A stretch of 64,000 bases of DNA. Origin: Actinomycetospora termitidis. GTDB taxonomy: Bacteria; Actinomycetota; Actinomycetes; Mycobacteriales; Pseudonocardiaceae. The translations under genes and the position numbers were made by a program. Numbering within the stretch: the stretch's first letter is position 1; each line of letters opens with the position of its first letter. Shown here one piece after another: positions 49,913 through 60,686 of this stretch. The stretch is taken from assembly GCF_030286555.1 (NCBI RefSeq), contig NZ_JASVWF010000002.1, forward strand, positions 744,001-808,000. The letters run 5' to 3'. The notes under the pieces were generated by a model, which worked only from the letters and a program-made list of their open reading frames with translations, was not told the origin of the DNA and did no database searches.

Positions 49913-50377
49913 ATGACGGCCACGGCAGACGATCGAGCGGATGTGCTCCACAAAGCCGGACTCGACGGTCAGAACCGCACGGCGCTGGGGCGGATGCTCG
50001 GTACCGGCGACGTCGGCTACGCCGAGGAGGGCGACGACGGCGTCATGCGCGCCACGGTCACCATCCCCGAGGACCAGCTGATCTTCAGCCCGAGCATCAT
50101 CGTGTTCCCGCACGGCGGGGACATCGAGCTCACGATCATCAACGACGACAAGAACACCCACTGCGCGCTCCTGCCGCACAACGGTGACCCCAAGATCATC
50201 TGGCTGGTCAACCACTCCAAGGGCACGGCGCGGCTGAACCTCGACGGTCCCGGGGCCTACTGGTACGGCTCCACGACCGGCAACGACGAGGGCCGCGGCC
50301 TGACGGCCGCCCTCGTCATGGGTGGCGAGGTCCCCGACTCGGCCAAGCTCGACCGCCCGCCGCAGCCCCGTCCCTGA
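49913..50377 (+). CDS. MSMEG_3727-type PQQ-associated cupredoxin-like protein
   Basis: This 154-residue protein has a beta-sandwich pattern: ATVTIPEDQLIFSPSIIVFPHGGDIELTIINDDKNTHCALLPHNGDPKIIWLVNHSKGTARLNLDGPGAYWYGSTTGNDEGRGLTAALVMGG. It corresponds to the actinobacterial PQQ-associated family named after MSMEG_3727. The plastocyanin-like first ligand His83 is present, but the loop that should give Cys-His-Met (about 115-136) has only a late Met. There is no signal peptide. It lies 19 nt upstream of the dehydrogenase and probably binds to or accepts electrons from it (inference). GAGGAGGGG fixes the ATG. Confidence 0.8.
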   Translation: MTATADDRADVLHKAGLDGQNRTALGRMLGTGDVGYAEEGDDGVMRATVTIPEDQLIFSPSIIVFPHGGDIELTIINDDKNTHCALLPHNGDPKIIWLVNHSKGTARLNLDGPGAYWYGSTTGNDEGRGLTAALVMGGEVPDSAKLDRPPQPRP

Positions 50378-50396
50378 CGCCCGAGAGGAGCACTCC

Positions 50397-52085
50397 ATGA
50401 CCGACTACGTCGACGCCGGCGAAGCCGTCGCGCACCGCACCCTGTCCAACGTCAAGGGCGAGGCGCCCGCGACGCGGAACGTGGACTACGACCGCATCAA
50501 GGGTGCCAAGAGCGAGCCGGAGAACTGGCTCACCTACTACGGCAGCTACGACGGCCAGCGCTACTCGCCGCTGGACCAGATCAACAAGAGCAACGTCCGC
50601 AAGCTGTCGCCCGCGTGGGTGTTCCAGGCGGGCTCGACCGGCATGCACTCCGGTGCCTCGACCTACTCGTTCGAGGCGTCGCCGCTCGTGGTGGACGGCG
50701 TCATGTACGTCTCCGGCCCGGACGGCAAGGTGTGGGCGATCGACCCCACCACCGGTGACGAGCTGTGGCGCTACAAGCACGCCTCGCCGTTCGACACCTC
50801 GCTGTGCTGCGGCAACGTCAACCGCGGCGTCGCCGTGGGCCACGGCAAGGTGTACATGTACACCCTGAACGCCCACCTCATCGCGCTCGACGCGACCACC
50901 GGCGAGAAGGTCTGGGACACCACCAACGGTGACGTCCGCGCCGGGGAGAGCGGCTCGGCCGCCCCGCTGATCGTCAAGGACATGGTCGTGGTCGGCAGCG
51001 CCGGCGGCGAGTTCGGTGTCCGCGGCCACCTGGACGCCTTCGACGCGCAGACCGGCGAGCGCCGCTGGCGCTGCTACACGGTGCCGAAGCCGGGCGAGCC
51101 CGGCTCGGAGACCTGGCCGGAGGACGGCGAGGCCTGGCAGCGCGGCGGCGCGAACTGCTGGATCACGCCGACCTACGACCCGGAGCTCGAGCTGCTCTTC
51201 CAGGGCACGGGCAACCCGGCGCCGGACTTCGACGGCGGCGTCCGCGAGGGCGACAACCTCTACACCGACTCCGTCGTCGCGATCGACGTGAACTCGGGCG
51301 AGATCCGCTGGCACTACCAGTTCACGCCCCACGACCTGTGGGACTACGACTCGACGATGGAGAACCTGCTCTTCGACGCACCGGACGGGCGCAAGCTGCT
51401 CGCCCACGCGGACAAGAACGGCTACTTCTTCGTCATCGACCGCACCAACGGCGAGCTCGTGCGGGTCTTCCCCTTCGTCGACCGCATCACCTGGGGCGAG
51501 ATCACGCCCGACGGCAAGGTGACGCCGAAGATCTACCCCGACGAGGAGGGCGTCCCCGTCCACTTCTGGCCCGGCCCGGCCGGCGGCAAGGAGTGGACGC
51601 ACATGTCGTACAACCCCCAGACCGGGCTGATCTACATCCCGGTCCAGGAGGTCGGTGCGACCGCCACCCGCCGTCGCCGCGAGTTCAAGGAGTCGATCCC
51701 CTACTGGGGAGCCGGCGTGGCCGTCGACCTCGACGACCACTACGGCTTCGTCAGCGCGGTCGACCCGACGACCGGCGAGGAGAAGTGGCGCTGGAACCAC
51801 GAGTACCCCATGTGCGCGTCGAACATCACGACGGCGGGTGGGCTCGTCTTCCAGGGCACGCCGAGCGGCGAGTTCGTGGCCCTCGACGCGGAGACCGGCG
51901 AGAAGCTGTGGCAGTTCCAGTGCGGCAGCGGACACCACTCCAGCCCGACCGTCTACTCGGTGGACGGGCGTCAGTACGTCGCGGTGCCCACCGGCTGGGG
52001 CGGCTGGGTCGAGGGCTTCCTGCCCGGCCTGCTCGGCGCCGCCGCGGGTGACGCGCTGTTCTGTTTCGCACTGCCCGAGGACTGA
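50397..52085 (+). CDS. PQQ-dependent alcohol (methanol/ethanol-type) dehydrogenase, no signal peptide
   Basis: This 562-residue eight-bladed quinoprotein has WLTYYGSYDGQRYSPLDQINKSNVRKL and tryptophan-docking repeats such as GVMYVSGPDGKVWAIDPTTGDELW. It has vicinal Cys137-Cys138, and metal and catalytic residues Glu205 (GGEFGVRG), Asn273 (TGNP) and Asp316 in HDLWDYD. Asp318, two residues on, fits the extra Asp of lanthanide-using XoxF/PedH enzymes, though glucose-dehydrogenase-type members also have D-x-D. Family enzymes are periplasmic, yet the N-terminus MTDYVDAGEAVAHRTLSN has no Sec or Tat signal. It oxidises an alcohol or sugar and passes electrons onward. GAGAGGAG precedes the ATG. Confidence 0.9.
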   Translation: MTDYVDAGEAVAHRTLSNVKGEAPATRNVDYDRIKGAKSEPENWLTYYGSYDGQRYSPLDQINKSNVRKLSPAWVFQAGSTGMHSGASTYSFEASPLVVDGVMYVSGPDGKVWAIDPTTGDELWRYKHASPFDTSLCCGNVNRGVAVGHGKVYMYTLNAHLIALDATTGEKVWDTTNGDVRAGESGSAAPLIVKDMVVVGSAGGEFGVRGHLDAFDAQTGERRWRCYTVPKPGEPGSETWPEDGEAWQRGGANCWITPTYDPELELLFQGTGNPAPDFDGGVREGDNLYTDSVVAIDVNSGEIRWHYQFTPHDLWDYDSTMENLLFDAPDGRKLLAHADKNGYFFVIDRTNGELVRVFPFVDRITWGEITPDGKVTPKIYPDEEGVPVHFWPGPAGGKEWTHMSYNPQTGLIYIPVQEVGATATRRRREFKESIPYWGAGVAVDLDDHYGFVSAVDPTTGEEKWRWNHEYPMCASNITTAGGLVFQGTPSGEFVALDAETGEKLWQFQCGSGHHSSPTVYSVDGRQYVAVPTGWGGWVEGFLPGLLGAAAGDALFCFALPED

Positions 52086-52133: not shown

Positions 52134-52214
52134 ATGGAGTGGGAGACCCCGGAGTTCACCGAAATCGGTGTCGCCCCTGAGGTGACGATGTACGTCGCCC
52201 AGATGGACGACTGA
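52134..52214 (+). CDS. pqqA: coenzyme PQQ precursor peptide PqqA
   Basis: This 26-residue peptide, [20 protein letters not shown] then VAQMDD, carries the Glu-x3-Tyr pair (EVTMY, Glu16 and Tyr20) that PqqE cross-links to form PQQ. GGGAGG at 52121-52126 points to the ATG at 52134; an in-frame ATG at 52098 would give 12 extra residues but has poor spacing. It lies 48 nt after the dehydrogenase and is followed by a hairpin at 52228-52263. No PqqF/PqqG-type protease is in the window, so peptide processing must be done elsewhere. Confidence 0.92.
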
Positions 52215-52227
52215 TCGAGTAAGTGCC

Positions 52228-52263
52228 ACCAGGGGCGTCGGATTCGATTCCGGCGCCCCTGGT
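52228..52263 (+). terminator. hairpin between pqqA and the rubredoxin gene
   Basis: A perfect 10-bp stem (ACCAGGGGCG with CGCCCCTGGT) has a 16-nt loop, beginning 14 nt after the pqqA stop. Without a T-tract it is likely a partial terminator or mRNA-stability element that raises pqqA levels over downstream pqq genes (inference). Confidence 0.6.
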
Positions 52264-52293
52264 CGGCGTGTACGACGAGAAACGGGGAACCCG

Positions 52294-52494
52294 ATGAGTG
52301 CGCCACCCGTGGCGAACAAGTGGATCTGCGAGATGTGCGGACTCATCTATGATCCGGAGGAGGGTGACCCCGACAGCGGCATCCCACCCGGGACGCCCTT
52401 CGAGGACATCCCCGACGACTGGATGTGCCCCATCTGCGGCGCCGAGAAGGCGGACTTCCGCGAGGTGCAACCGGGAGAGGACCTCGATCTATGA
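52294..52494 (+). CDS. rubredoxin
   Basis: This 66-residue protein has the two Cys pairs of a rubredoxin iron site: Cys12-Cys15 ([17 protein letters not shown]) and Cys45-Cys48 ([15 protein letters not shown]). It carries single electrons. The TGA lies within the ATG of the following diiron-protein gene (ATGA overlap), so the two are made together, and rubredoxin probably reduces that protein, as in rubrerythrin-type systems (inference). It could also serve the PQQ dehydrogenase. A rubredoxin inside a pqq operon is not part of the classical gene set. Confidence 0.93.
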
Positions 52495-53255
52495 TCACCG
52501 GGTACGGCCACTTCGTCCAACTGGCGGAATCGCTGCAGTGGGACGAGAAGGACATCGACCTCACGGCCGACGCCGAGGCGTGGGGGGAGCTCGAGTCCTC
52601 CGAACGCGACCGCGTGCTCGGGCTGATCGCCGGGTTCTGCGTCGGCGAGATGTCCGTCGCCACCCACCTCGGGTCGTTCGAGGACAAGGCCACGACGGAC
52701 GACTCGATGGCCGGGTGCTTCCGGGCCCAGGCCCGTGACGAGGCGCGGCACGCGCGCTTCTTCGACCGCGTCGCCGGCGAGGTCGTCGGCGTCCCCGGCG
52801 AGAGCCTCGCCGACCGGCTGGAGACGCTGCGCGACCACGTGAGCCCCGAGATCCTGGAGCTGTTCGAGGAGCGCCTGCCGACGCTGGCCGAGGACCTCGC
52901 CGCCGGGGAGAAGGACCTGACCGCGGCCGTCAGCTTGTACCACATGATCCTGGAGGGTGTGGTGCTCACGGCCGGGCAGCACGCCCTGCTCGCCGCCCTC
53001 GACCGGTGCTCGGTGAGCATGCCGGGCGTCCACAAGGGCATGGAGCTGGTGCTGCGCGACGAGCGCTGGCACATCGGGTTCGGCTCGCGCGTGATCCAGA
53101 GCGCGGACGTCGTCTCCGACGAGATGGAGGAGCTGCTCCAACAGGGCATGAAGGCGGCGCACGCCTGGGGCGACCTCATCGACCGGCAGGACATCGAGAA
53201 GGTCGAGCAGCTCCACAAGCGCCGCCTCAAGTCCGTCGGCATCAAGTTCTGGTGA
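52491..53255 (+). CDS. ferritin/R2-like diiron protein of the pqq operon
   Basis: This all-helical protein has 254 residues. Candidate iron ligands in ribonucleotide-reductase-R2 order are Glu53 ([13 protein letters not shown]), Glu84 and His87 ([11 protein letters not shown]), Glu155 ([16 protein letters not shown]), and Glu191 and His194 ([11 protein letters not shown]), giving two ExxH motifs. It is shorter than true R2 subunits and no NrdE partner is nearby. Being coupled to rubredoxin and 7 nt upstream of pqqB, it is likely an oxygen- or peroxide-activating enzyme in PQQ formation, PqqA processing or protection. That role is inference; I know of no described function. Confidence 0.8.
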
Positions 53256-53262
53256 GGGGCGC

Positions 53263-54138
53263 GTGAAGGTCCGCGTCCTGGGGTCCTCCGCCGGCGGCGG
53301 GCTCCCGCAGTGGAACTGCTCGTGCGCCGGGTGCGCGGGCGCACGTGAGGGCACCGTCGAGCCGCGCACGCAGTCCTCGATCGCCGTGGGCGACGGGGAC
53401 GCGTGGTTCCTGGTGAACGCCTCGCCCGACGTCCGCCAGCAGCTCGCGGCCGGCCCCGACCTGCACCCGGGCGCCTCCCGACGTAGCCCGGTCGAGGCGA
53501 TCCTGCTGTCCGACGCCGAGATCGACCACACCCTCGGCCTGCTGATCCTGCGGGAGGGGTCCGGGGTCACGGTGCACGCCACCGCGGCGACCGAGGCCAC
53601 CCTGCGGGAGGGGACGGGCTTCCTGACGACGCTCGAGGCGTACTGCCCGGTCGAGGTCGTCGGGGTCGAGGTCGGCGTCGCGCGGGCGCTCACCGAGCAC
53701 CTGTCGTACACCGCGTTCGACCTGCCGACCGGCAAGACGCCGCGCTTCGCCACGAGCGGCCCGGCGGAGGGGCGTGTCGTCGGGTACCGCTTCCACGACC
53801 ACCGCACGGGCGGCAGCGTGGTCTACGCGCCCGGCGTCGCCGACCTCGCGCCGCTGGAGGCGGCGTCCCGCGGGGCGTCGGTGCTGCTCGTGGACGGGAC
53901 GTGCTTCCACGACGACGAGCTCGTCCGGCTGGGGCTCGGGCGCAAGACCGCCGCCGACATGGGCCACGTGGCCCTGGAGCGGTCGCTGGACCGGCTCGCC
54001 GAGCTCGACGTGCCGCGCATCGTCCTGGTCCACATGAACAACTCGAACCCGATCCTGCTCCCCGACTCCGACGAGGCACCCGTCGTCGGGAAGGCCGGGG
54101 TGGAGATCGGCCACGACGGATGGGAGCTCGAGGCGTGA
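53263..54138 (+). CDS. pqqB: PQQ biosynthesis protein PqqB (metallo-beta-lactamase fold)
   Basis: This 291-residue protein starts MKVRVLGSSAGGGLPQWNCSCAGCAGAR, the PqqB hallmark with structural-zinc Cys residues. It continues SSIAVGDGDAWFLVNASPDVRQQL, AILLSDAEIDHTLGLLILREG (the metal-binding motif with Asp/His), VDGTCFHDDE and IVLVHMNNSNPILLPDSDE. PqqB is an iron-dependent hydroxylase acting on the Glu-Tyr dipeptide in PQQ synthesis. The GTG start is 7 nt after the diiron gene. The stop overlaps the pqqC GTG by 4 nt. Confidence 0.95.
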   Translation: MKVRVLGSSAGGGLPQWNCSCAGCAGAREGTVEPRTQSSIAVGDGDAWFLVNASPDVRQQLAAGPDLHPGASRRSPVEAILLSDAEIDHTLGLLILREGSGVTVHATAATEATLREGTGFLTTLEAYCPVEVVGVEVGVARALTEHLSYTAFDLPTGKTPRFATSGPAEGRVVGYRFHDHRTGGSVVYAPGVADLAPLEAASRGASVLLVDGTCFHDDELVRLGLGRKTAADMGHVALERSLDRLAELDVPRIVLVHMNNSNPILLPDSDEAPVVGKAGVEIGHDGWELEA

Positions 54139-54821
54139 CTGCCGTTGCCGAGACGACGTTGACCGAGCGGCTGCGCTCGCAGGCCTCGCGCTATCACGCG
54201 GCGCACCCCTTCCACGTGCGCATGAACGACGGGGAGCTCTCACCGGCCCAGATTCGCGGGTGGGTGGCGAACCGCTTCCACTACCAGGAGTCCATCCCGA
54301 TCAAGGACGCCGCGATCCTGTCGAACTGCCCGGACGTCGAGGTGCGGCGGCGGTGGATCCGGCGGATCACCGACCACGACGGGGTCGGCGACGACCCGGG
54401 TGGCATCGAGGCGTGGCTGCGGCTGGGCGAGGCGTGCGGGGTGCCGCGCGAGGAGATGACCGATCACCGCCACCTGCAGCCCGGTGTGCGGTTCGCGGTC
54501 GACGCCTACGTGACGTTCGCGCGGACGAAGCCGTGGCCGATCGCGGTGGCGTCGTCGCTGACCGAGCTGTTCGCGCCGGACCTCATGGCGACCCGGCTCG
54601 CGGCGTTCGAGAAGTACTACACCTGGATCGACCCGGCGGGCCTGCAGTACTTCCGCAATCGGCTGTTCCAGGCGCCGCGCGACTCCGAGCACGCCCTCGA
54701 GGTGGTCCTGGAGCACTGCCGGACGCCGGAGGCGGAGCAGGCGGCCTACGACGCGCTGGCGTTCAAGAACGACGTCCTGTGGTCGATGATGGACGCCATC
54801 GACGCGGCGTACCCGGCATGA
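54135..54821 (+). CDS. pqqC: pyrroloquinoline-quinone synthase PqqC
   Basis: This 228-residue all-helical oxidase performs the final ring closure and eight-electron oxidation to PQQ. Typical stretches are RYHAAHPFHVRMNDGELSPAQIRGWVANRFHYQESIPIKDAAILSNCPD, RITDHDG, HLQPGVRFAVDAYVTF, SLTELFAPDLMATRLAAFEKYYTWID and the C-terminal LAFKNDVLWSMMDAID. Length matches the family (about 230-250). The GTG at 54135 overlaps the pqqB stop and the TGA overlaps the pqqD ATG, so the three are coupled. Confidence 0.96.
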   Translation: MTAVAETTLTERLRSQASRYHAAHPFHVRMNDGELSPAQIRGWVANRFHYQESIPIKDAAILSNCPDVEVRRRWIRRITDHDGVGDDPGGIEAWLRLGEACGVPREEMTDHRHLQPGVRFAVDAYVTFARTKPWPIAVASSLTELFAPDLMATRLAAFEKYYTWIDPAGLQYFRNRLFQAPRDSEHALEVVLEHCRTPEAEQAAYDALAFKNDVLWSMMDAIDAAYPA

Positions 54822-55096
54822 CCGCTCCGTTCTCGACGACGGGCGTGCCGCGCCTGGCGCGTGGGGTGAAGCTGCGCTTCGACCGCTCCCGGGAGCGGCA
54901 CGTGCTGCTGCTGCCGGAGACCGTGGTGGAGCTCAACGGCACCGGCACCGCGATCCTGCAGCTCTGCGACGGGCAGCGGACCGTGGCCGACATCGTCGCC
55001 GCGCTGCGCGAGCAGTACGCGGACGTGCCCGAGGGGCAGGTCGTCGCGTACCTGGCGAAGCTCGCCGAGCGCCGACACCTGGAGATTCATGAGTGA
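54818..55096 (+). CDS. pqqD: PQQ biosynthesis peptide chaperone PqqD
   Basis: This 92-residue RiPP-recognition-element protein presents PqqA to PqqE. Its sequence PRLARGVKLRFDRSRERHVLLLPETVVELNGTGTAILQLCDGQRTVADIVAALREQY is classic PqqD: three beta strands then three helices. The ATG overlaps the pqqC stop (ATGA). The 3' end overlaps pqqE by 8 nt. Confidence 0.95.
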   Translation: MTAPFSTTGVPRLARGVKLRFDRSRERHVLLLPETVVELNGTGTAILQLCDGQRTVADIVAALREQYADVPEGQVVAYLAKLAERRHLEIHE

Positions 55097-56222
55097 GATC
55101 GACGGAGACGCAGCGGAGCGGAGCTCGACCACGGTGGAGGGCCCCCTCGGCCTGCTGGCCGAGCTGACGTACCGGTGCCCGCTGGCGTGCGCGTACTGCT
55201 CGAACCCGATCGAGCTGGCCGCGTACCGCGACGAGCTGGACACCGCCGAGTGGCAGCGGGTGATCACCGAGGCCGCCGAGCTGGGCGCGTTGCAGTGCCA
55301 CCTCTCCGGCGGGGAGCCACTGCTGCGCCGCGACCTCGCCGACCTGGTGCGCACCGCCGCCGAGCAGGGGCTCTACACGAACCTCGTCACGAGCGCGCTG
55401 GGCTTCACCGCGAAGCGGGCGGCCGAGCTGCACGACGCCGGGCTGGACCACGTGCAGGTGTCGCTGCAGGCCGACGAGCCGGCGCTCTCGGACCGGATCG
55501 CCGGCCTGCCGTCGTTCGCGCGCAAGATCGACGCCGCGCGGCGGGTGCGGGAGCTGGGCTGGCCGCTGACGCTGAACGTCGTGCTGCACCGGCAGAACAT
55601 CGACCGCATCCCCGAGATCCTCGCGGCGGCGGAGGAGCTCGAGGCCGACCGGATCGAGCTGGCCAACACCCAGTACTACGGCTGGGCGGCGCTGAACCGG
55701 GCGGCGCTGCTGCCCTCGCGGGAGCAGCTGGCGGAGGCCGAGGTCGTGGTCCGTGAGGCCAAGGAGCGGCTCCGCGGACGCATGGAGATCATCTACGTGA
55801 TCCCGGACTACTACGCCACCTACCCGAAGCCGTGCATGGGCGGCTGGGGCGCGCGCCAGCTCGTCGTCGTGCCGACCGGGGACGCCCTGCCGTGCCTGGC
55901 CGCGCACGGGCTGCCGCTGCCGTCGGCGAACGTGCGCGAGCACGACCTGGCGTGGATCTGGCGGGACTCGCCGATGTTCTCGGCGTACCGGGGCACCGAC
56001 TGGATGCAGGACCCGTGTCGGTCGTGCGACCGCCGCGAGGTCGACCTCGGCGGGTGCCGCTGCCAGGCGTTCGCGCTGACCGGCGACGCCACCCGCACCG
56101 ACCCGGTCTGCCACCTCAGCCCCGACCACGGGATCGTCGAGGCAGCCGTGGCGGAGGCCAACGAGGAGCGCACCCCCGTCGACCTTCCGCTCGTGCCCCG
56201 CCGCGAACGGCAGCGGAACTAG
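55089..56222 (+). CDS. pqqE: radical SAM PqqA peptide cyclase PqqE
   Basis: This 377-residue enzyme forms the Glu-Tyr carbon-carbon cross-link in PqqA. The radical-SAM cluster is Cys30, Cys34 and Cys37 (TYRCPLACAYCSNP), followed by HLSGGEPLLRRDL. The C-terminal SPASM domain has the Cys set CRSCDRREVDLGGCRCQAF and a late Cys in DPVCHLSPDHG. It is the last gene of the operon. Its TAG stop shares the tetranucleotide CTAG with the stop of the convergent exchanger gene. Confidence 0.96.
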   Translation: MSEIDGDAAERSSTTVEGPLGLLAELTYRCPLACAYCSNPIELAAYRDELDTAEWQRVITEAAELGALQCHLSGGEPLLRRDLADLVRTAAEQGLYTNLVTSALGFTAKRAAELHDAGLDHVQVSLQADEPALSDRIAGLPSFARKIDAARRVRELGWPLTLNVVLHRQNIDRIPEILAAAEELEADRIELANTQYYGWAALNRAALLPSREQLAEAEVVVREAKERLRGRMEIIYVIPDYYATYPKPCMGGWGARQLVVVPTGDALPCLAAHGLPLPSANVREHDLAWIWRDSPMFSAYRGTDWMQDPCRSCDRREVDLGGCRCQAFALTGDATRTDPVCHLSPDHGIVEAAVAEANEERTPVDLPLVPRRERQRN

Positions 56223-57307
56223 TCGTCCAGCGGGACCCCGCCGAAGAAGACCAGGCTGGCCACGAAGTACACGACGTAGAAGGCCAGCAGCACGATCCCG
56301 TGCCAGCGGCGCAGCCGGCCGGTGGCGAGGAAGCCGGCCGCGATCGCCGTCATGACGATGAGCACGGGCAGGTGCCAGGCCAGCACGTCCTCGTCGACCG
56401 CGATCGCCCCGCCGGTGAGCAGGATGATGCCGAGCTTGCCGGTCACGGAGAACACGACGCTGCCGACGACGTTCGCGACCGCGATCTCCGGAGCCCCGCG
56501 ACGCTGCGGCTCGGCGGTCAGGAAGATGTCCTCCAGTGAGAGCGCGAGCGTGGCGATCGTGACGCCGAAGACGGTGCCCTCGATGCCGAGCGTCTCGATG
56601 ACCCCCTCGGTCGCCTGCCCGGCCGCGACCGCCCCGATGACCAGACCGATCAGCGCCAGCACCGCGAGCCCGAGCCCCACGCCGGGGGAGTGGGTGCGGG
56701 CCTTGAGGAAGCCCTCGTCGAGTCGCAGGTCGGGCGGGAGGGTGAAGGACCGTCCGCCGTCGGGCTGCCGGGGGTCGTCCAGGGCGACCGACCCGCCGCC
56801 GTTGCCGCCCACTCCCGCGCCGACCTTCTCGAACTGCTCGTAGACCTCGGCGTTGCGGAAGACCGGGCGGCGCGCGGCGTACTCGCGGTAGCCGATGTAG
56901 GCGACGAACGCGACGAACAGCAGGACCAGCACGACCCCGGCGGCCACCGTGAGGAACCCGGTGAGCGCGAACGCGAGCATGAGGATCGGGGCGAGCACGA
57001 ACAGCGCGAGGTAGTCCTTCGGCACGTCCACGACGGTCGGGGCGATGATCGCCGAGATCGCCAGCACGACGCCCGTCATCGCGACCGTCGTCCCGATCAC
57101 CGTCCCGAGCGCGACGTTGCTCAGGTCCTCGAGGTTGAGCGCGATCCCGAAGGCGAGGTCGTCGAACTCGATCCCGGTGAACAGCACGGCGATGAGGAAC
57201 AGCGAGATCGCCCACCGGCTCGCGACCCCGACGAGGTACCCGATCAACTTCTCGGCGCTGAACACCAGGACCGCGATCCCGATGACGAACAGCAAGATCG
57301 ATTCCAT
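56219..57307 (-). CDS. CaCA-superfamily sodium/calcium (cation/proton) exchanger
   Basis: This protein of about 362 residues has ten or so TM helices in two inverted halves. Alpha-repeat-like segments are LFLIAVLFTGIEFDDLAFGIALNLEDLSNVALGTVIGTTVAMTGVVL in the first half and GTVFGVTIATLALSLEDIFLTAEPQRRGAPEIAVANVVGSVVFSVTGKLGIILL in the second. A hydrophilic loop of about 60 residues joins the halves. The conserved acidic residue in each repeat is kept. It likely exchanges Ca2+ or another cation for Na+ or H+. The ATG is at 57307. A calcium link to the PQQ enzyme is possible but unproven. Confidence 0.85.
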   Translation of the reverse strand: MESILLFVIGIAVLVFSAEKLIGYLVGVASRWAISLFLIAVLFTGIEFDDLAFGIALNLEDLSNVALGTVIGTTVAMTGVVLAISAIIAPTVVDVPKDYLALFVLAPILMLAFALTGFLTVAAGVVLVLLFVAFVAYIGYREYAARRPVFRNAEVYEQFEKVGAGVGGNGGGSVALDDPRQPDGGRSFTLPPDLRLDEGFLKARTHSPGVGLGLAVLALIGLVIGAVAAGQATEGVIETLGIEGTVFGVTIATLALSLEDIFLTAEPQRRGAPEIAVANVVGSVVFSVTGKLGIILLTGGAIAVDEDVLAWHLPVLIVMTAIAAGFLATGRLRRWHGIVLLAFYVVYFVASLVFFGGVPLDD

Positions 57308-57497: not shown

Positions 57498-60272
57498 TCA
57501 GCCCGTGTTGCGCATCCCCGCCGAGATGCCGTTGACCGTCAGCAGCAGCGCGCGCTGCAGGTCCGGGTCGGGCTCGTCGACCGTCCGCCGCTCCGCGAGC
57601 GCGTGGACCTGCAGGTGGTGCAGCGGCTCGAGGTAGCTCTCGCGGACCTCGAGGGTCTGGCGCAGCAGCGGGTTGTTCGCGAGCAGGTGGTCGCCGGGGG
57701 ACAGGGCGAGGACCTCCTTGAGGGTCCGCGCGTGCTCGGCCTTGATGATCTCGAAGACGTCCTGCAGCTCCGGGTCGACCAGTTCGGACACGTAGAACCC
57801 GGCGATGCGCATGTCGGTCTTCGCGAGCGTCATCTCGACGTTGGAGAGCAGGTTCGCGAAGAACGCCCAGTCGCGCATCTCGTCGATGACGTCGCCGTAC
57901 CCCGCCTCGTGCGCGGCGCGCAGGCCCGAGCCCAGCCCGAACCACCCGGGGACGATCATGCGGGTCTGCGTCCAGCCGAACACCCACGGGATCGCGCGGA
58001 GGTCGTCGAGCGACGCGTCGCCGCCGGCCCCCGGTCGCTTGCCGGGCCGGGAACCGACGTTCAGCATCGACAGCTCGTCGACCGGCGTGGCCTGGGTGAA
58101 GAAGTTCGGCAGGCCCTCGTGCCCGACGAGCTCCTCGTACGCGGCCTGGGCGGCGTCGGAGATGACGTCCATGGCCTCGTCCCAGCGCTTCAGCTGGTCG
58201 GCGGGCACCCGGCTGGTCTGGTGCAGCAGCGTCGCCTCGAGCACGGCCGACAGCATGATCTCGAGGTTGTCCTCGGCCAGCGAGGGCAGCGAGTACTTGT
58301 CCGAGATGACCTCGCCCTGCTCGGTCTCCTTCATCACCGCGTCCACGACGCCGTGCGGCTGGGCCGCGATCGCCTCGGCGGACGGGCCACCACCGCGCCC
58401 GACCGACCCGCCGCGGCCGTGGAACAGGCGCAGCCGCACTCCGTGCTTGGCGGCGACGTCGCGCAGTTGGCGCTGGGCCTGGTGGATGGACCACTGGCTC
58501 GTCGTGATCCCGGCGCCCTTGTTGGAGTCCGAGTAGCCCAGCATCATCTCCTGCACGTCGCCGCGGGCCGCGACGATCGCGCGGTACGACGGGTCGGAGA
58601 GCATCCCGTCGAGCAGGTCGCCGGAGATCTTGAGCTCGGTCGCCGTCTCGAACAGCGGGACGATGTCCAGCGACGAGCGCGCCCCGTCGACGGTGAGCTC
58701 GATCAGGCCGGCCTCGCGCGCGAGCACGGCCACCGCGAGGACGTCGTCGACGTTCTGGGCCATCGACATGATGTAGGTGTGCAGGGCCTCCTCGCCGTAG
58801 GTGTCCTGCACCGACCGGATCGTGTCGAAGACCTCCAGGGTCTCCCGGAACGAGTCGTCGCCGATCTCCTGCCAGTTGCGCCGCGGGGTCAGCGCCCGCC
58901 GGCCGGCCAGCTCCGTCGAGAGCACCTCGATCCGGCCGTCGTGGTCCAGCTCGGCGTACGGGGTCTCCAGCTCGCCGAGGCGGTCGAACAGGGCCGCGAG
59001 CGCGGTGTGGTGGAACTTGGTGTGCTCGCGCACGTCGACCGAGGCCAGGTGCAGACCGACCGCGTTCGCGCTGCGCATGACGTCGCGGAGCATCCCGTCC
59101 GCGATCCGCTCGCCGTCGTGGGTGCGCAGCGAGCGGTCCATGATCTCGAGGTCGTGCAGGTACTCCGCGCTGCCGAGGTAGTCCCGCCCCGGGACGTGCG
59201 CGGACCCGTCGTCGTACCGCCGGCGGGTGTTCTCCAGCCGGGCGTGGATGTAGGAGCACTTCAGCCGGTAGGGCTCCTCGGCGTTGAGCCGGACGAAGCG
59301 GTCGTGGATCTCCGGGAGGTGCCGGCGGTCGCGGGCCAGGCTGCGCCGCAGGTCGTCGGACACCCCGGCCAGCCGCGTCGACACGGACAGCTCCTGGACC
59401 AGCTCCTCGACCAGGCCGATCTGGATGCGCACGCCGCGGTCGGCGTAGATCCGCATGACGTCGGTGGTCAGCTGCGCGGTGACGTTCGGGTTGCCGTCCC
59501 GGTCGCCGCCCACCCAGCAGCCCAGCACCAGGGGCCGGGCACCGTCGGGCAGGCGCAGGTCGACCCGGGCGAGCTCCTCGTCGAGGACCGTGAGCACCTC
59601 GGGGACCGCGTGGCGCCCGAGCTGTTCGAGGTAGTAGGACACCGAGCGGGCCTCGTCGAGCACCGTCGGACGCTCGGGACGGATCTCGTCGGTCTGCCAG
59701 ATGAGGTCGACGAGGCGCTCGAGCCGGGTCTCCGCGGCCTCGGGCGAGAGCCCGTCGCCGAGGATCGCCGCGATCGAGCGGAGCTTGCCCAGCACCGACT
59801 GCCGCTGCGCCTCGGTGGGGTGCGCGGTGAAGGTCGGCTTGAGCTCGAGGCGGGACAGTGCGGTCTTCAGCTCGTCGGGGTCGGCCTCGTCGACGAGCCG
59901 CTGCGCGAGCAGGTGGATCGGCCCCTCGCCCCGTTCGTGCACCTCCCGGCGCTCGGCCGCGCGGTGGGTCTGCTCGGCGACGTTGGCGAGGTGGAAGTAC
60001 GTCGCGAACGCCCGGGCGAGCACGGCGGCGGTGCCCGGGTCGAGGTCCGCGAGCAGGTCACGGATCTCGGTGTCGCCGCGCTCGGGGACCTCGCGCACCA
60101 TCGCGCGGACCTTCTCGACGAGGTCGAGCATCTCGTCGCCGTTCTGCCGCGCGAGCGTCCGCCCGAGCAGGGTGGAGAGCCGGCGGATGTCGGTGCGCAG
60201 CGCGGAGTGCTCGGACTCGCTGGAGACGCTGCCCTCGGTCGGCACGGAGTCGGAACGTCGGCCGGTGCTCAT
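57498..60272 (-). CDS. ppc: phosphoenolpyruvate carboxylase
   Basis: This 924-residue enzyme makes oxaloacetate from PEP and bicarbonate. Catalytic regions are TAHPTEAQRQSVLGKL (His), VGGDRDGNPNVT, MLGYSDSNKGAGITTSQW, FHGRGGSVGRGGGPS (the Gly-rich loop), KETEQGEVISDKY, and the invariant C-terminal GISAGMRNTG. In the leader GAGGAG abuts an ATG at 60281 directly, so the second in-frame ATG at 60272, with proper spacing, is the likely start. The upstream spacer of over 600 nt contains the inverted 48-bp repeat arrays. Confidence 0.96.
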   Translation of the reverse strand: MSTGRRSDSVPTEGSVSSESEHSALRTDIRRLSTLLGRTLARQNGDEMLDLVEKVRAMVREVPERGDTEIRDLLADLDPGTAAVLARAFATYFHLANVAEQTHRAAERREVHERGEGPIHLLAQRLVDEADPDELKTALSRLELKPTFTAHPTEAQRQSVLGKLRSIAAILGDGLSPEAAETRLERLVDLIWQTDEIRPERPTVLDEARSVSYYLEQLGRHAVPEVLTVLDEELARVDLRLPDGARPLVLGCWVGGDRDGNPNVTAQLTTDVMRIYADRGVRIQIGLVEELVQELSVSTRLAGVSDDLRRSLARDRRHLPEIHDRFVRLNAEEPYRLKCSYIHARLENTRRRYDDGSAHVPGRDYLGSAEYLHDLEIMDRSLRTHDGERIADGMLRDVMRSANAVGLHLASVDVREHTKFHHTALAALFDRLGELETPYAELDHDGRIEVLSTELAGRRALTPRRNWQEIGDDSFRETLEVFDTIRSVQDTYGEEALHTYIMSMAQNVDDVLAVAVLAREAGLIELTVDGARSSLDIVPLFETATELKISGDLLDGMLSDPSYRAIVAARGDVQEMMLGYSDSNKGAGITTSQWSIHQAQRQLRDVAAKHGVRLRLFHGRGGSVGRGGGPSAEAIAAQPHGVVDAVMKETEQGEVISDKYSLPSLAEDNLEIMLSAVLEATLLHQTSRVPADQLKRWDEAMDVISDAAQAAYEELVGHEGLPNFFTQATPVDELSMLNVGSRPGKRPGAGGDASLDDLRAIPWVFGWTQTRMIVPGWFGLGSGLRAAHEAGYGDVIDEMRDWAFFANLLSNVEMTLAKTDMRIAGFYVSELVDPELQDVFEIIKAEHARTLKEVLALSPGDHLLANNPLLRQTLEVRESYLEPLHHLQVHALAERRTVDEPDPDLQRALLLTVNGISAGMRNTG

Positions 60273-60413
60273 CGCGCACATCTCCTCGGTGACGGGGGCT
60301 CGGGACGCCCACGGCACCGGGGACGTGGCCGATTGTCTGCCCCGACGGGGTGTGCCGCTACACCTGGCCGCAGCAACCTTCCCGACGGCGGGCTCGATCG
60401 GCGGGTGCCGGCC

Positions 60414-60590
60414 GGCTCGGCGTTGCGTCGCGCACACGGTGCGGGTGGGTCGTTCTGCGGTGGCTCGGCGTTGCGTCGCGCACACGGTGCGGGTGGGACG
60501 ACCTCCGGTGGCTCGGCGTTGCGTCGCGCACACGGTGCGGGCGGGACGTCCTCGGTCGGATCGCCGTGGCGTTCCGCACCACGGTCGGCG
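60414..60590. repeat. 48-bp tandem repeat array A (three full units plus a degenerate one)
   Basis: Units begin at 60414, 60462 and 60510, with a decayed fourth unit from 60558. Each contains the core TTGCGTCGCGCACACGG followed by a GGTGGG- or GGCGGG-type stretch; the last ~14 bases of each unit vary. The array lies 142 nt upstream of ppc on its leader side. Apart from the arrays, 60273-60890 contains nothing recognisable. Confidence 0.9.
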
Positions 60591-60686
60591 GCGCCCGTAC
60601 CCGCTCCGCATGATCATCGGGCCCTGAGCGTTGCCCCGACGCGCCCGGAGGAGCGCTGGGTGCCCGCTCGGCGTGCCGGCCTCGGG

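Follow-up and report, generated by a model that had tools for sequence, protein, structure and literature searches.

A rubredoxin and an R2lox-like oxidase in an actinobacterial PQQ operon track one clade of alcohol dehydrogenase

The 64,000-nucleotide stretch of the Actinomycetospora termitidis genome analysed here (contig NZ_JASVWF010000002.1, positions 744,001 to 808,000; hereafter the window) carries an operon for biosynthesis of pyrroloquinoline quinone (PQQ), in which a rubredoxin gene and a gene for a diiron-type protein resembling R2lox oxidases, together termed the pair, lie between pqqA and pqqB. Across the family Pseudonocardiaceae, the diiron gene co-occurs with one clade of PQQ-dependent alcohol dehydrogenase (ADH), here called ADH-I, is linked to its gene, and is independent of the lineage of the biosynthetic proteins PqqB, PqqC and PqqE (PqqBCE). 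Under the reading tentatively preferred below, the pair stands outside PQQ synthesis and would serve as a dedicated accessory of ADH-I, for which it would perform a required two-electron oxidation.

The diiron gene co-occurs with ADH-I

The diiron gene is present in 38 of 346 Pseudonocardiaceae genomes at 58–100% identity, and 111 of the 346 contain a match to the ADH family at 1e-200. ADH-I, at least 83% identical to the enzyme of the window, occurs in 38 of these 111 genomes, the next ADH standing at 75%. The ADH-I genomes and the diiron genomes form an identical set, and all 73 genomes with only other ADHs (at most 75%) are without the diiron gene (Fisher's test within the 111 ADH genomes, 1.3e-30, not corrected for kinship). 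The same division is seen inside a single genus (g11, Pseudonocardia), where 17 genomes carry both ADH-I and the diiron gene and 17 carry only other ADHs. Where a genome has two ADH matches, as in ten cases, coordinates place the diiron gene beside ADH-I. As independent evidence, the 17/17 division within one genus and the three changes of label on the PqqBCE tree (see below) are the fairest measure.

Among the matches listed, the diiron gene is found in 18 of 18 genomes that are the source genome itself or belong to its genus. At the level of the order, 16 of 298 genomes match the diiron protein at 1e-10, three of them at 61% identity or more and 13 at 33% or less. A phylum-wide search with a diiron profile returns 25 of 366 genomes at E ≤ 1e-20, the source genome included, and a plasmid search returns 20 records at no more than 32.3% identity. 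Scanning of the genome collection, with a pattern that would miss distant relatives, yields 29 loci, many of which share a genome; 17 come from Actinomycetospora, nine from Pseudonocardia, one from Saccharopolyspora and two from metagenome-assembled genomes (MAGs; Nocardioidaceae and Pseudonocardiaceae). Additionally, Actinomycetospora callitridis carries a second copy of the diiron gene (locus L029); it follows a pqqA, and the 10 kb to each side contain neither a rubredoxin gene nor an ADH or pqqB–E gene.

Layout of the locus and linkage to ADH-I

The features of the locus are arranged as follows:

49913..50378, + strand: MSMEG_3727-family PQQ-associated protein (TIGR04339, 260.6 bits, cut-off 75; PF23509)
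50397..52085, + strand: PQQ-dependent alcohol dehydrogenase ADH-I (TIGR03075, 624.2 bits, cut-off 480)
52134..52214, + strand: pqqA precursor peptide, 26 aa (TIGR02107, 32.2 bits, cut-off 20; PF08042 above cut-off)
52215..52293, + strand: hairpin between pqqA and the rubredoxin gene (-48.7 kcal/mol, z -6.4)
52294..52494, + strand: rubredoxin, 66 aa (PF00301, 85 bits, cut-off 23; NF045768, 92 bits, cut-off 90)
52491..53255, + strand: R2lox-like diiron (or Mn/Fe) oxidase, 254 aa (PF00268, 51.7 bits, cut-off 33.6)
53263..54138, + strand: pqqB, GTG start (TIGR02108, 332.6 bits, cut-off 245)
54135..54821, + strand: pqqC (TIGR02111, 306 bits, cut-off 240)
54818..55096, + strand: pqqD (TIGR03859, 82.3 bits, cut-off 46)
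55089..56222, + strand: pqqE (TIGR02109, 523.6 bits, cut-off 381)
56219..57307, - strand: Na+/Ca2+ exchanger-family antiporter (PF01699, 99.1 bits)

Profile search places PqqA to PqqE all above their curated cut-offs, identifying a PQQ biosynthesis operon. The rubredoxin and diiron genes lie between pqqA and pqqBCDE, where the original prediction had located them, and both give profile matches above cut-off. From the rubredoxin gene onward, the gene junctions are overlaps or gaps of a few bases; the predicted ATGA coupling of the pair is borne out by the overlap at 52491–52494, as are the 7 nt between the diiron stop and the GTG start of pqqB. The ADH and MSMEG_3727-family genes, upstream of the span 52134–56222 on the same strand, proved the most important for interpretation.

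In 36 of the 38 genomes, the diiron gene lies on the contig and strand of ADH-I at a distance of 399 to 3552 nt, downstream in 21 and upstream in 15, while in the other two the genes are on different contigs. The gene orders encountered include ADH-pqqA-pair-pqqBCDE and ADH-pqqA-pair-pqqA-pqqBCDE, ADH-pair-pqqA-pqqBCDE in Saccharopolyspora, and pair-MSMEG_3727 protein-ADH-pqqABCDE in Pseudonocardia, often behind an S9 peptidase gene. Genome G527 shows ADH-pqqABCDE-pair, and loci L031 and L032 show ADH-pqqA-pair with pqqB elsewhere in the genome. In one group of Actinomycetospora loci (L022–L028, L030, L033, L034), the pair has a pqqA gene on each side.

Phylogeny of the ADH and PqqBCE proteins

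Quick trees were built from query-anchored rows of 53 genomes, 25 with the pair and 28 without it, a subset of the 38 and 73. On the ADH tree, the 25 pair rows stand on one side of one branch (support 100) with a stem of 0.34 changes per site. On the PqqBCE tree, the pair label needs three changes, at least two of them forced by well-supported branches; two Saccharopolyspora pair rows fall among pair-less rows, and the pair-less genome G412 falls among pair-bearing Pseudonocardia. Forcing the pair rows together on the PqqBCE tree is rejected by an approximately unbiased (AU) test (p 8.8e-30); a further AU test, designed for G412 once the tree had been inspected, gives p 1.5e-5. Seven rows of this tree are incomplete (G239 and G335 without PqqE, G581 without PqqB, and G536, G247, L031 and L032 partial). 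Of the three pair-less neighbours of Saccharopolyspora on the tree, two (G239 and G335) are among these incomplete rows. Because the diiron gene tracks ADH-I, the PqqBCE tree does not follow it, and pair-less genomes keep PqqC, the pair appears to belong to ADH-I.

Residues fixed with the pair number 17 in the ADH, two in the MSMEG_3727 protein, one in PqqC and none in PqqB, PqqD or PqqE, counts in which the pair-less rows are only 10 for PqqD and 11 for PqqE and some genomes stand twice. When 37 distinct ADH sequences of each kind are compared, 12 positions are fixed (108, 130, 148, 217, 338, 403, 418, 442, 449, 470, 532 and 545).

The R2lox-like oxidase and its rubredoxin

The best-matching families of the diiron protein are R2lox models, yet its maximum of 75.6 bits lies far below the curated cut-off of 194. 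All 32 pair sequences match five R2lox models, the cut-off comparison covering the protein of the window. The structural model (pLDDT 90.5, built with 32 sequences) has the R2lox fold, with R2lox structures occupying Foldseek ranks 1–33 and VIA ranks 1–26; it aligns with R2lox at a VIA Z of 26.1 and a root-mean-square deviation of 2.6 over 239 residues, ribonucleotide reductase R2 coming close at Z 24.4. The putative metal ligands E53, E84, H87, E155, E191 and H194 (pattern E, ExxH, E, ExxH) occur in every one of the 96 rows, among which some genomes are represented more than once, and are in register with the six ligands of Geobacillus R2lox. Likewise, V56 and Y150 align with V72 and Y162, which form the ether cross-link of the Geobacillus protein, and are constant in 96/96. 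The C-terminal tail reads I(K/R)FW throughout the same 96 rows, IKFW in the window, and is modelled with low confidence; such constancy combined with low model confidence is as expected of a docking tail. The sole hydrophobic stretch of the oxidase is an inner helix.

A tree with 43 other homologues gathers the 32 pair sequences into one group (support 99), several long branches leaving its deeper order unsure. These 43 control loci, 14 from the order search and 29 from the phylum search, extend up to 1.5 kb on each side of the gene and less at contig ends; within that range, tblastn and a Cys pattern detect no rubredoxin. The full ligand and Val/Tyr signature is present in 36 of the 43, while seven deviate, and some of these homologues may not be R2lox. 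By alignment and model, this is a short protein that forms its own branch within the R2lox group, and it is predicted to have a carboxylate-bridged dimetal site. Like R2lox, which has Mn/Fe according to passages of PMC6399176, it could well contain an Mn/Fe centre instead of a diiron one, so that "diiron" serves as a name only. Other identities were considered and set aside. Ribonucleotide reductase R2 reaches at most 31.6 of 310 bits on the curated NrdB models, PF00268 spanning both groups; a rubrerythrin-type peroxidase (PF02915) scores 18.4 bits, below the cut-off of 22.8; and PADLOC returns no defence-system match for either member of the pair.

The whole genome gives a single PF00301 match, this rubredoxin. 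Its four Cys are retained in 91 of 92 rows, the remaining row being incomplete, and its gene adjoins the diiron gene in 36 of the 38 genomes (G516 counted through record L043). In the other two, G386 and G561, the oxidase keeps its ligands and tail. Because these two genomes retain the tail although no intact rubredoxin gene adjoins, rubredoxin is probably not the tail's sole partner. The rubredoxin-binding reductase domain PF18113 is not found in the genome, a domain that marks one kind of reductase only and is present in 1 of 14 control genomes.

ADH-I and its cupredoxin-like neighbour

The closest solved chains to ADH-I are 6zcv and 6zcw. The WDYD motif of ADH-I aligns with WDFD of PedH, its second Asp lying two residues past the catalytic Asp in what we take to be the lanthanide-type signature, and on this alignment ADH-I is a predicted lanthanide-type quinoprotein. 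Y449 and Y470 are found in ADH-I and not in other ADHs, and M403 is replaced by Ala in other ADHs, Met occurring also in PedH. Judging from the PedH alignment and in part from known structures, positions such as 403, 470, 532 and 545 appear to be close to the entrance of the active site. According to passages of PMC10991234, 6ZCW is PedH, and its F412 lies in the substrate channel.

A simple hydropathy scan detects no export-signal-like N-terminus on ADH-I, the MSMEG_3727 protein, the rubredoxin or the oxidase, so the four can meet in the cytosol, and ADH-I is probably cytosolic. The AlphaFold2 model of the MSMEG_3727-family protein (pLDDT 80.4) matches auracyanin and CuA domains in Foldseek at TMq ~0.5, predicting a cupredoxin-like fold. 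As a separate observation, ten ADHs of the 67–69% type (for example G271, G408, G515, G526 and G535) have one in-frame TGA within the match.

The pair and PQQ biosynthesis

The original prediction proposed that the pair provides an extra or replacement step of PQQ synthesis, or its protection. PqqC occurs in 42 of 298 genomes of the order, of which three have the pair and 39 lack a close diiron homologue, and all 16 pair-less Pseudonocardia tested, selected for having an ADH of this family, contain PqqC. Furthermore, G412 lacks the pair with PqqBCE of the pair group, two Saccharopolyspora pair rows have PqqBCE of the pair-less group, and the diiron gene tracks one ADH clade instead, in 38/38 genomes. 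The proposal therefore loses ground, and the conservation that had been expected holds in part: the pair is conserved, with a pqq or PQQ-ADH neighbourhood in nearly all loci read, and it is absent from those 39 genomes.

A role in PQQ synthesis or tailoring, in which PqqA, some intermediate or finished PQQ would be oxidized by the pair, possibly yielding a derivative used by ADH-I alone, is consequently very improbable. The gene order would suit it, for in Actinomycetospora the pair sits between pqqA and pqqB, in one group between two pqqA genes, and the order pqqA-rubredoxin-diiron is kept even in L031 and L032. It is opposed by the 39 pair-less PqqC genomes, by the absence of any fixed difference in PqqB, PqqD or PqqE, by G412 and Saccharopolyspora, which break the link between the pair and the PqqBCE lineage, and by the genomes with both ADH types, which would require two cofactors. 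A PqqC residue that first seemed crippled also argues against it. At the position of a His in the solved PqqC sequence, which we take to be H154, the PqqC of the window carries Met, and the position is Met or Leu in pair-bearing and pair-less rows alike (Met 110, Leu 7 in the 117 covering rows; 33 rows do not cover it, and some genomes count more than once), which discounts repair of PqqC, that is, the pair finishing the oxidation of PQQ. As an observation in its own right, this replacement of His in the IHQSRL stretch of actinobacterial PqqC may mark a variant active site.

Replacement of PqqB by the pair likewise finds no support; PqqB is present in seven of eight pair-bearing genomes searched, the exception being a 3.5 Mb MAG, and shows no fixed difference. 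Nor does a pair-specific PqqA variant emerge, the PqqA peptides of pair and pair-less loci overlapping in a comparison whose labels placed several pair loci (L019, L029, L052–L054, L100, L108–L112) on the pair-less side; the counts of fixed differences were taken from named lists of loci. In pair-less Pseudonocardia G581 (L183/L201), pqqC directly follows pqqA, and no pqqB was found there.

Neighbouring genes and other features

The hairpin at 52215–52293 is matched in stability by none of 200 shuffles. The same holds for seven of eight post-pqqA stretches elsewhere (L020, L021, both of L022, the second of L024, L040 and L042), while the stretch of L048, with 33/200 shuffles as stable, is no better than its shuffles. 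These hairpins are very stable and GC-rich, with a stem sequence similar across genera. They are probable attenuators or stabilisers, and likely set the level of pqqA high relative to the downstream genes.

Across 15 stretches compared for recurrent neighbouring ORFs, the antiporter is a common neighbour, as is the S9 peptidase in Pseudonocardia. The antiporter (56219–57307) recurs beside these clusters and also beside the orphan diiron copy (L029 10827), and might serve the metal of the quinoprotein. The S9 (DPP IV-like) peptidase upstream of the Pseudonocardia pair (L035, L039, L040, L042–L045, L049/L050) is a candidate PqqA protease. Ten further recurrent ORFs each occur in few stretches only; three have no Pfam match and seven do (SUKH-1, DUF1232, two zinc-type dehydrogenases, aldo/keto reductase, FKBP isomerase and phosphoesterase). 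The ORF at 57498–60617 (- strand) beyond the antiporter, presumably phosphoenolpyruvate carboxylase-like, is not among the recurrent neighbours in the 15 stretches. The M16 peptidase family (PF05193) has three matches in the whole genome, two adjacent on another contig; these two neighbouring genes (G000 C22:309957–311851), one with an HxxEH motif, are PqqF/G candidates.

Possible roles of the pair

In the account that we tentatively prefer, the oxidase would reduce O2 at its dimetal site and rubredoxin would re-reduce the oxidase, while the invariant C-terminal IKFW tail would dock it on a protein of the ADH-I system, where it would perform the two-electron oxidation needed by ADH-I. The target would most likely be ADH-I itself, through maturation or upkeep of a residue or bound cofactor. 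A direct protein–protein role is favoured by the lockstep occurrence, by a linkage that has survived rearrangement and by the conservation of the tail. Maturation or upkeep ranks somewhat ahead of alcohol supply in likelihood, with an electron sink and a PQQ step behind both. Stated in its most specific form, as an R2lox-like maturase that, with rubredoxin as reductant, oxidizes a residue or bound cofactor of ADH-I, the proposal is fairly unlikely; Y449, Y470 and M403 would be the first candidate residues for such maturation.

Supply of substrate is the closest alternative and is possible, if on balance doubtful. Rubredoxin and an R2lox-like monooxygenase would hydroxylate a hydrophobic compound, and ADH-I would oxidize the resulting alcohol, a scheme paralleled by alkane pathways with rubredoxin. 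Under this scheme, rubredoxin would keep the monooxygenase supplied with electrons over successive turnovers. In its favour are also the differences between ADH-I and other ADHs, for example at 403, which follows the position aligned with PedH F412 by nine residues, and genes resembling zinc-type alcohol dehydrogenase and aldo/keto reductase, which recur in three of 15 stretches each. However, such a pathway would permit ADH-I without the oxygenase somewhere, which is seen in none of the 38 genomes, and no catabolic gene recurs in most loci, only the antiporter and S9 peptidase being common among the recurrent ORFs scanned. Hydroxylation of a free substrate by R2lox is not met in the passages of the literature considered.

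Quite improbable is an electron sink, in which the diiron protein would reduce O2 or peroxide with electrons from ADH-I, relayed by either the cupredoxin-like protein or rubredoxin. Periplasmic cytochrome c acceptors fit poorly with the lack of export-signal-like N-termini, the small partner has a cupredoxin-like fold, and the genome has no PF18113 domain; against this, other ADH types have the cupredoxin-like partner and no pair, PF18113 represents the single reductase kind noted above, and two genomes have no adjacent rubredoxin. We know of no R2lox acting as a terminal oxidase, which also counts against an electron sink.

Several points weigh against the accessory role itself. At the diiron locus, where rubredoxin was examined in these two genomes, G386 has no adjacent rubredoxin and G561 a degenerate remnant, so that rubredoxin is dispensable or replaced there. 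Co-inheritance of neighbouring genes could explain part of the match with ADH-I, the label on the PqqBCE tree changing only about three times, and a smaller number of fixed differences would be expected in PqqB in any case, given its faster evolution compared with the ADH. In Actinomycetospora, the pair sits behind a pqqA gene, and the second diiron copy of L029 stands by a pqqA with no ADH nearby. Direct action of the pair on ADH-I is itself something we infer.

Relation to known systems and significance

The oxidase shares the fold, the six ligands and the Val/Tyr of the ether cross-link with R2lox of Geobacillus, Mycobacterium tuberculosis and Saccharopolyspora (7qbp). Unlike these, it has 254 residues, scores far below the NCBIfam cut-offs, branches apart from the 43 homologues, and has a rubredoxin partner, a tie to a PQQ-ADH and its own C-terminal IKFW tail. 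PQQ operons with ADHs of the MSMEG_3726/MSMEG_3727 type are known from the M. smegmatis MSMEG_3721–3727 cassette (passages of PMC6529628 and PMC3023750). Most pair-less loci share with this cassette the order cupredoxin-like protein, ADH, pqqA, pqqBCDE; in contrast to the window, the pair-less loci read have this M. smegmatis-type order without the pair. Among lanthanide ADHs of the PedH/XoxF type, PedH is the best solved match to ADH-I and the extra lanthanide-type Asp is aligned, whereas ADH-I has no export-signal-like N-terminus and is adjoined by the gene of a cupredoxin-like protein. Alkane hydroxylase systems also combine rubredoxin, a dimetal protein that activates O2 and an alcohol dehydrogenase; AlkB, however, is a membrane protein of another family, and the genome contains no PF18113 domain, the one reductase domain covered by the search.

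R2lox and PQQ operons of the MSMEG_3726/3727 type are thus known, and the open-licence literature searched offered no description joining rubredoxin or R2lox with PQQ genes; the suggestion of an undescribed system stands to that extent. R2lox structures have been released since 2009, and passages of PMC6060897 and PMC6399176 describe the physiological function of R2lox as not known. A sub-branch with its own rubredoxin and one strictly matched enzyme gives R2lox a testable partner in environmental actinobacteria, with the related ADHs that lack the pair as a built-in control. Should the maturase proposal be true, it would give the R2lox group its first physiological role and reveal a new way of completing a quinoprotein.

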